From the NCBI RefSeq assembly GCF_008017755.1, contig NZ_VRTS01000004.1, positions 1-64,000 of the forward strand: DNA of 64,000 nt. Direction: 5' to 3'. The stretch comes from Alkalisalibacterium limincola. GTDB taxonomy: Bacteria > Pseudomonadota > Gammaproteobacteria > Xanthomonadales > Xanthomonadaceae. The notes below the pieces were generated by a model. The model did not search any database, was not told the origin of the DNA, and saw only the letters and a list, made by a program, of their open reading frames with translations. Position numbers and translations under genes: made by a program. Shown piece by piece: positions 2,415 to 3,888 of this stretch. Position 1 is the first letter of the stretch. The number at the start of each line of letters is the position of its first letter.

Positions 2415-2437
2415 CGGGGACTCCAGGACGGATGAAT

Positions 2438-2447
2438 CAAACGTTTG
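2438..2447 (-). promoter_or_regulatory. Palindromic operator CAAACGTTTG at the ETF dehydrogenase promoter
   Basis: Perfect 10-base inverted repeat, one base downstream of the predicted -10 hexamer, so it should cover the transcription start. From memory, TetR-family regulators of fatty-acid oxidation such as PsrA use CAAAC/GTTTG half sites and control ETF genes in other gammaproteobacteria. The position fits repression; the regulator itself is not in this window. Confidence 0.5.
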
Positions 2448-2448
2448 G

Positions 2449-2477
2449 ATTGTCGGGCATCGCGGCGGGGGCGGCAA
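2449..2477 (-). promoter_or_regulatory. Sigma-70-like promoter of the ETF dehydrogenase gene
   Basis: On the minus strand TTGCCG (2477-2472) and GACAAT (2454-2449) are separated by 17 bases. The predicted start of transcription is near 2442, giving a leader of about 28 bases to the ATG at 2414. Confidence 0.5.
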
Positions 2478-2526
2478 ATTGCGGCCGTAGCAACCATAAT
2501 GAGGGCTGATTTCGAAGGAGTGGGGC

Positions 2527-3888
2527 ATGAGTTGTGATCCAGACGCGTTGCGGCGCGCACCAATGGTTCGCGTGCTGCGCGCCTTGGCATTGAGGGAGGT
2601 GTCGTCGGAAGCCCTGGTCGGGGCGTGCCTGTCCGCGATCGAGCGTGACAACCCCTCCCTGCATGCGTGGACCCATGTCGGCGCCGACGCGGCCTTGCGT
2701 GACGCCCGGGCCTCGGACCAGCGCCGGGCGCAGGGCGCCGCCCTCGGGCGGCTGGACGGCGTTCCAGTCGCGCTCAAGGACAGCTTCGACGTCGAGGGCA
2801 TGCCGACTTCGCTGGGGCTGCCCCCGCGCGACGCCTGGCTGGTCCATGACGACGCCAGCGCGGTATCGCGCCTGCGCGGCTGTGGCGCCGTCATCCTCGG
2901 CAAGACCGCGATGGACGAGCTGGCCTTCGGCACGATGGGCAGCAACCCCCATGGAGGCGATGTCGGAAATCCGTCCTTGCCGGGGCGGGCCAGCGGCGGG
3001 TCCTCGGCGGGCGCCGCCGCCGCCCTGGCGGCCGGCCATGCCACGGTGGCCCTGGGCACCGACACGCTGGGCTCGGTCCGGATTCCCGCTGCGTTCTGCG
3101 GCCTGGTCGGCCTGAAGCCGACCTTCGGCGAAGTCAGCCGGGTCGGCATGGCGCCGGCCCTGCGCCGCCTGGACTGCCCCGGTGTTCTCGCGCGAAGCGT
3201 CCAGGACGCGGGGATGGTGCTCAAGGTGCTGGCGGGTTACGACGCCGGCGACGTGGCCTGCCGCGCACGTCGCGTGCCACTCGCGTTGCCGGACTGGGAC
3301 CCGGCCGCACTGCGGGTCGGCCTGGTGTCCGACCTCCGCTCGCTCGGGGCCGCTCCCGAGGTGGTGGATGCGTTCCGCGCCGCAGTGTCGGCAGCCGGGG
3401 CGACGCTGGGCCACGCCCGACCCGTCTCACTCGACCTGGCCCCGCTGGAAGTGGCGGCCAGCCGCCGGGCGGCGCTACTGCTGATGGAGGCCGACATCCT
3501 GGCCGCCCATGGCGATCGGGTGGAGCATGCCTCCGATCGCACCAGGGGCCTGCTCGAATACGCACGCAGCCGGACCGCGGTCGAGGCGATGGCCGCCGAG
3601 CAGCGCCTGGATGGCCATGTGGTGGCGGTGCGGCGCCTGTTCGAGGAGTTCGACGTGCTGGTGCTGCCGACCGTTCCCACCGCGCCGCCCGCACTGGGTG
3701 CGGCGGAGCCGGCCAACCTGGCCGACTTCACGGCCCTGGCCAGCCTGGCCGGCTGTCCGGCACTGAGCCTGCCTCTGCCGGGGGGCATGGGGTTGCAGCT
3801 GGTCGGGCCCCGCGGCAGCGACCTGCGTCTCCTGGAACTGGGCGAGGTGGTGCACTCGGTGATCGAGGCGACGCTGGAGGCCTCCTGA
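2527..3888 (+). CDS. Amidase-signature family hydrolase
   Basis: A 453-residue amidase-signature enzyme, which hydrolyses amide bonds of an unknown small substrate in the cytoplasm. The catalytic set is recognisable: Lys near residue 83 (VALKDSF), the glycine/serine loop with the cis-Ser near residue 159 (SGGSSAG) and the nucleophilic Ser near residue 183 (LGSVRIPAAFCG). The usual DTGGS reads DTLGS here, a mild deviation. The start ATG follows AGGAG by six bases. The gene stands alone, divergent from the ETF dehydrogenase gene. GatA is longer (about 485 residues) and sits with gatB/gatC, so this is more likely a stand-alone amidase; the substrate cannot be inferred. Confidence 0.88.
   Translation: MSCDPDALRRAPMVRVLRALALREVSSEALVGACLSAIERDNPSLHAWTHVGADAALRDARASDQRRAQGAALGRLDGVPVALKDSFDVEGMPTSLGLPPRDAWLVHDDASAVSRLRGCGAVILGKTAMDELAFGTMGSNPHGGDVGNPSLPGRASGGSSAGAAAALAAGHATVALGTDTLGSVRIPAAFCGLVGLKPTFGEVSRVGMAPALRRLDCPGVLARSVQDAGMVLKVLAGYDAGDVACRARRVPLALPDWDPAALRVGLVSDLRSLGAAPEVVDAFRAAVSAAGATLGHARPVSLDLAPLEVAASRRAALLLMEADILAAHGDRVEHASDRTRGLLEYARSRTAVEAMAAEQRLDGHVVAVRRLFEEFDVLVLPTVPTAPPALGAAEPANLADFTALASLAGCPALSLPLPGGMGLQLVGPRGSDLRLLELGEVVHSVIEATLEAS

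Follow-up and report, generated by a model that had tools for sequence, protein, structure and literature searches.

The window analysed here, a 64-kb stretch of DNA, carries on its minus strand an intact gene for ETF-ubiquinone oxidoreductase (ETF dehydrogenase, ETF-QO; positions 789–2414, 542 aa), with Pfam matches to Fer4_ETF_QO (144.5 bits) and ETFQO_UQ-bd (127.4 bits). ETF-QO orthologues are found in 59 of 60 relatives. A divergent amidase gene (2527–3888, plus strand; 453 aa; Pfam Amidase, 287 bits) occupies the other side of the same intergenic region, and adjoins ETF-QO in other relatives as well, among them the locus L018 of genome G026, from another genus.

The ETF-QO promoter and its palindrome

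Read along the minus strand, the upstream region consists of a -35 element TTGCCG (2477–2472) inside the conserved sequence ATTTGCCG, 17 bases (2471–2455), a -10 element GACAAT (2454–2449), a single C (2448), and then a perfect 10-bp palindrome without spacer, CAAACGTTTG (2438–2447), with the ETF-QO ATG downstream of it at 2414. This confirms the layout given in an earlier sequence-only reading of the window, which placed a perfect palindrome one base after GACAAT, itself 17 bases from TTGCCG. A generic sigma-70 scan made no calls for this promoter; its support comes from conservation of the -35/-10 pair, with the position of the -35 element kept among relatives and either GACAAT or GAAAAT at the -10. 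A window-like pair, by a pattern of our own, is present in 99 of 152 Lysobacterales ETF-QO upstream regions. They comprise regions from 142 of the 158 genomes of the family that gave an ETF-QO match (the others were fragmentary, divergent or unlisted) and ten regions belonging to other families of the order. Because L020 and L293 duplicate one locus, 151 of the 152 are distinct; L226 and L299 were kept although they failed a frame check.

Judging by the position of the -10 element, transcription would start inside the palindrome. The flanks beyond CAAACGTTTG are asymmetric and do not pair. The decamer occurs once in the window, against 0.02 copies expected from dinucleotide shuffles, of which 2 in 100 contained it. 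The window has 111 perfect 10-bp palindromes, and no other among them has six or more A/T. On the amidase side, ATTATGGT (2493–2500), also found in L018, becomes ACCATAAT when read in the direction of the amidase gene, for which it is a possible -10 element. The palindrome lies upstream of this candidate element and could act on both genes.

Conservation among relatives

By comparison of the 152 upstream regions, the ETF-QO promoter is old, unlike the palindrome. Intact CAAACGTTTG is found in the window only, and CAAAC-N0-6-GTTTG with at least 9 of 10 matches in just four regions (the window, L018, L012 and L016). Absence from relatives at this gene, which the sequence-only reading had named as an argument against an operator, is thus largely what is seen; the site is nevertheless kept in one other genus. 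At the equivalent place L018 has GACAATCCAAACGCTTGATTC, and the two loci have in common the block GACAATCCAAACGTTTGATTC (minus strand, 2434–2454) with one C/T difference. Written as GACAATCCAAACGYTTGATTC, the block fits both loci at 21 of 21 positions; the closest of the other 150 regions differs from it at 7. The single change in L018 breaks the 10-bp symmetry, giving CAAACGCTTG, and leaves the rest of the block as it is. The conserved property is therefore not the 10-bp symmetry, and the block, given its retention and the distance to the next best region, is probably functional. The intergenic DNA of the two loci has otherwise diverged, with only short blocks in common, including ATTATGGT and ATTTGCCG.

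A three-gene tree, built from the 16 genomes in which all three proteins could be parsed, joins G000 (the genome of the window), G021 and G026 with support 0.997, whereas in an ETF-QO tree (56 of 59 loci parsed) L018 is not beside L003. Taken together, the trees suggest that the block either dates from a common ancestor, with losses among closer relatives of the window, or arose on two occasions.

PsrA and its operators in the family

The half sites of the palindrome had been recognised in the sequence-only reading as resembling those of PsrA, a regulator of the TetR type, and they do match the PsrA consensus G/CAAAC-N2-4-GTTTG/C given in the excerpts of PMC10304680 and PMC13104628 used here; the exact decamer carries both. 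The genome encodes a PsrA orthologue (G000:C14:303482–304057) with TetR_N and TetR_C_30 domains, the latter being the only TetR_C_30 match in the whole genome. Matches to this protein were obtained in 57 of 60 relatives, the weaker ones including other TetR proteins. A 3-hydroxyacyl-CoA dehydrogenase gene follows psrA, and the homologues Smlt2053 of Stenotrophomonas and XAC2014 of Xanthomonas are likewise described beside such a gene; Smlt2053 is reported to bind its own promoter, and long-chain fatty acids to have an effect (PMC10304680, in part). In the assembly, the psrA reading frame (L117) is broken by a frameshift near its start. The genome's etfB (L147) is likewise split between two frames near its start. 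Two such splits in conserved genes suggest sequencing errors, although real loss may be the cause.

Upstream regions of psrA could be parsed for 27 of 30 loci (in G035, G030 and G032 the start region was not found by the patterns). CAAAC-N4-GTTTG is perfect in 20 of the 27, and at least 9 of 10 positions match in 24, against 0.6 expected. The family operators start immediately where the -10 element ends, typically as TACGATCAAACAAGCGTTTGATTCA; in the window the start is one base further on. The genome's own psrA operator is a degenerate N4 box, CTAACGACCGTTTG.

The palindrome as such, with no spacer, fits neither the published two to four bases nor the four of the family. At four-base spacing, however, the site can be read as CAAAC-GTTT-GATTC (2434–2447, minus strand), with 8 of 10 matches to CAAAC-N4-GTTTG, the second half site matching at 3 of 5 positions. 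A 17-base weight matrix was made from 26 family psrA boxes with 11 distinct cores (G009 was dropped, and the G010 box re-placed by hand). By this matrix the window 17-mer scores 17.6 bits, the highest in the 64 kb and the highest of the 152 ETF-QO regions, only three of which reach 12 bits (L018 has 12.9 and L012 has 12.3). This is below all real psrA operators, which score 20.1–31.9 bits in a leave-one-out comparison, and 7 of 100 random 64-kb windows score as much. When the operators of the genome itself and of G026, G021 and G004 are left out of the matrix, the N4 register scores 13.75 bits, a value reached by 25 of 100 random windows and lower than the window's top match at 15.5 bits. With 7–25% of random windows scoring as high, the matrix score alone is weak; it is strengthened by position, gene and retention in L018.

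Possible readings of the site

The reading we favour, tentatively and at somewhat short of an even chance, is that the palindrome forms part of a PsrA-type operator over the transcription start of ETF-QO, read as CAAAC-GTTT-GATTC, in which a perfect half site and a weakened one are separated by the four bases usual in the family. The best account of the site appears to be a weak PsrA operator that two lineages have kept. A PsrA dimer would occupy the DNA from just after the -10 element to about +10. When long-chain fatty acids are scarce, bound PsrA would hinder RNA polymerase at ETF-QO; when they are plentiful, PsrA would leave, and ETF-QO expression would rise with beta-oxidation. Binding by PsrA, repression and the ligand are here what we infer; the sequence itself, the promoter, the PsrA orthologue of the genome, the psrA operator pattern in relatives and the retention of the block in L018 are direct observations.

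This reading agrees with the PsrA operators of Pseudomonas, Stenotrophomonas and Xanthomonas in the CAAAC/GTTTG half sites, in the place over -10/+1 and in a regulator encoded beside a 3-hydroxyacyl-CoA dehydrogenase gene. ETF genes had been said to belong to PsrA regulons, and this is reported for P. aeruginosa, where PsrA controls etfBA negatively and the ETF-QO gene PA2953 positively, both directly (PMC13104628, in part, citing Kojic et al.). The proposal that the palindrome blocks the start of transcription finds no support there, the P. aeruginosa ETF-QO promoter being described as activated by PsrA, and the signal reported in the excerpts of PMC10304680 and PMC13104628 is free long-chain fatty acids rather than the long-chain acyl-CoA that had been suggested. 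Of the proposed PsrA-like operator itself, the half sites, the presence of the regulator and the nearly equivalent place of its own operator relative to the -10 element stand; the missing spacer, against four bases in the family, does not fit. Among the genera examined, the PsrA-type ETF-QO site is confined to two.

It is also possible, though we think it somewhat less probable, that there is no operator: the block would then be simply a -10 element with its transcript start, and the palindrome a coincidence of A/T-rich start-site DNA. Its absence from nearly all relatives and a PsrA matrix score within reach of chance are consistent with this, as is the copy number, about one exact copy being expected per 3.03-Mb genome (from the scaled shuffle rate) and two found, including that in the window. 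Against this, the fifteen bases past the -10 element are common to the window and a distant genus, with none of the other 150 regions near, in DNA whose spacer and leader have diverged.

Exact and spaced searches of the genome turned up three places, the two without spacer and one with a one-base spacer, the last within a predicted coding frame. Beside the second exact copy are, by our own annotation, a short frame resembling a lipoprotein and a putative restriction endonuclease frame; this copy was not seen at a fatty-acid gene. Of the genome's other fatty-acid regions that were compared, neither the etfB promoter nor the tfmR-fadE region has a PsrA-type or comparable site. The degenerate N4 pattern recovers the psrA box and two weak places.

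Unlikely, in our estimate, is a different dimeric repressor with a short operator lacking a spacer, either of LacI type or another TetR protein, that binds the 10-bp palindrome itself. The core of LacI/PurR-type operators is AAACGTTT, the central eight bases of the window palindrome; perfect symmetry and a central CG fit such cores, and the block is retained in L018. The flanks beyond CAAACGTTTG, however, form no extended symmetric arms around AAACGTTT, the base change in L018 breaks the symmetry (to CAAACGCTTG) with the rest kept, and the frames beside the second exact copy include no recognised fatty-acid or regulator gene.

Operators at other ETF genes

The other fatty-acid-responsive TetR regulator of the order, TfmR, controls fadE, mhpC and fadH in Xanthomonas (PMC6637906, in part). 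In the comparison, CAAAC-N4-GTTTG has a counterpart here in CATAC-N6-GTATG, found with at least 9 of 10 matches in 14 of 15 tfmR-fadE regions (L333–L347, chosen from 35 genomes with a match), against 0.2 expected. In two of these, L337 and L338, two GCGTTTGA direct repeats lie just inside the fadE-side transcript, on the fadE side of the TfmR-type site. At the same threshold this CATAC motif is found in 5 of 29 etfB regions (G013 was dropped, its start region not being found by the patterns) and 5 of 152 ETF-QO regions, against 0.1 expected in each. Its presence at both tfmR-fadE regions and some etfB and ETF-QO promoters suggests that TfmR controls ETF genes in some lineages; a term search of the available parts of two TfmR papers (PMC6637906, PMC11173191) returned no mention of ETF.

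For the window, TfmR is a most improbable occupant: the operator deduced here is likewise a palindrome on fatty-acid oxidation promoters, and is present at ETF genes of some relatives, but differs from CAAACGTTTG in both sequence and spacing. A TfmR operator at this site was rejected, as the window's ETF-QO region has no CATAC-N6-GTATG match of 8 of 10 or better.

Among the ETF genes compared, the clearest site of PsrA type is that of G017 (L292, near base 405), where a perfect CAAAC-N4-GTTTG box, CAAACGCGCGTTTG, lies between ETF-QO and etfB and scores 20.4–21.7 bits. A third element, the inverted repeat TTTGC-N10-GCAAA, was found in the -35/spacer portion of ETF-QO promoters, exact in 35 of the 152 upstream regions (L003–L032 and L177–L299) and with at most one mismatch in 54. 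At spacings of 4–9 or 11–16, no exact copy of the repeat occurs in these regions. The window (2459–2478) and L018 keep only its left arm. A longer version of the pattern is found at 11 places in 36 genomes, three of them at ETF-QO by coordinates and one upstream of psrA in G010.

These distributions could mean that control of ETF-QO turns over between operators within one family, having been repeatedly re-wired to the fatty-acid sensor at hand: PsrA-like in the window and L018, TfmR-like upstream of the gene in another genus (L004, L177–L179) and in some etfB promoters, and through the undescribed TTTGC-N10-GCAAA element in the core promoter of many others. We consider so general a scheme rather doubtful. 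PsrA control of ETF-QO is already known in P. aeruginosa, so the window site would join a known type of control and adds modestly to it. If the PsrA-type reading is correct, the last electron-transfer step of beta-oxidation would be tied to the sensor that governs the fadBA-type operon in this lineage, a link also present in P. aeruginosa. From the broader survey come candidate TfmR operators at ETF genes that can be tested, together with a promoter element conserved at ETF-QO.
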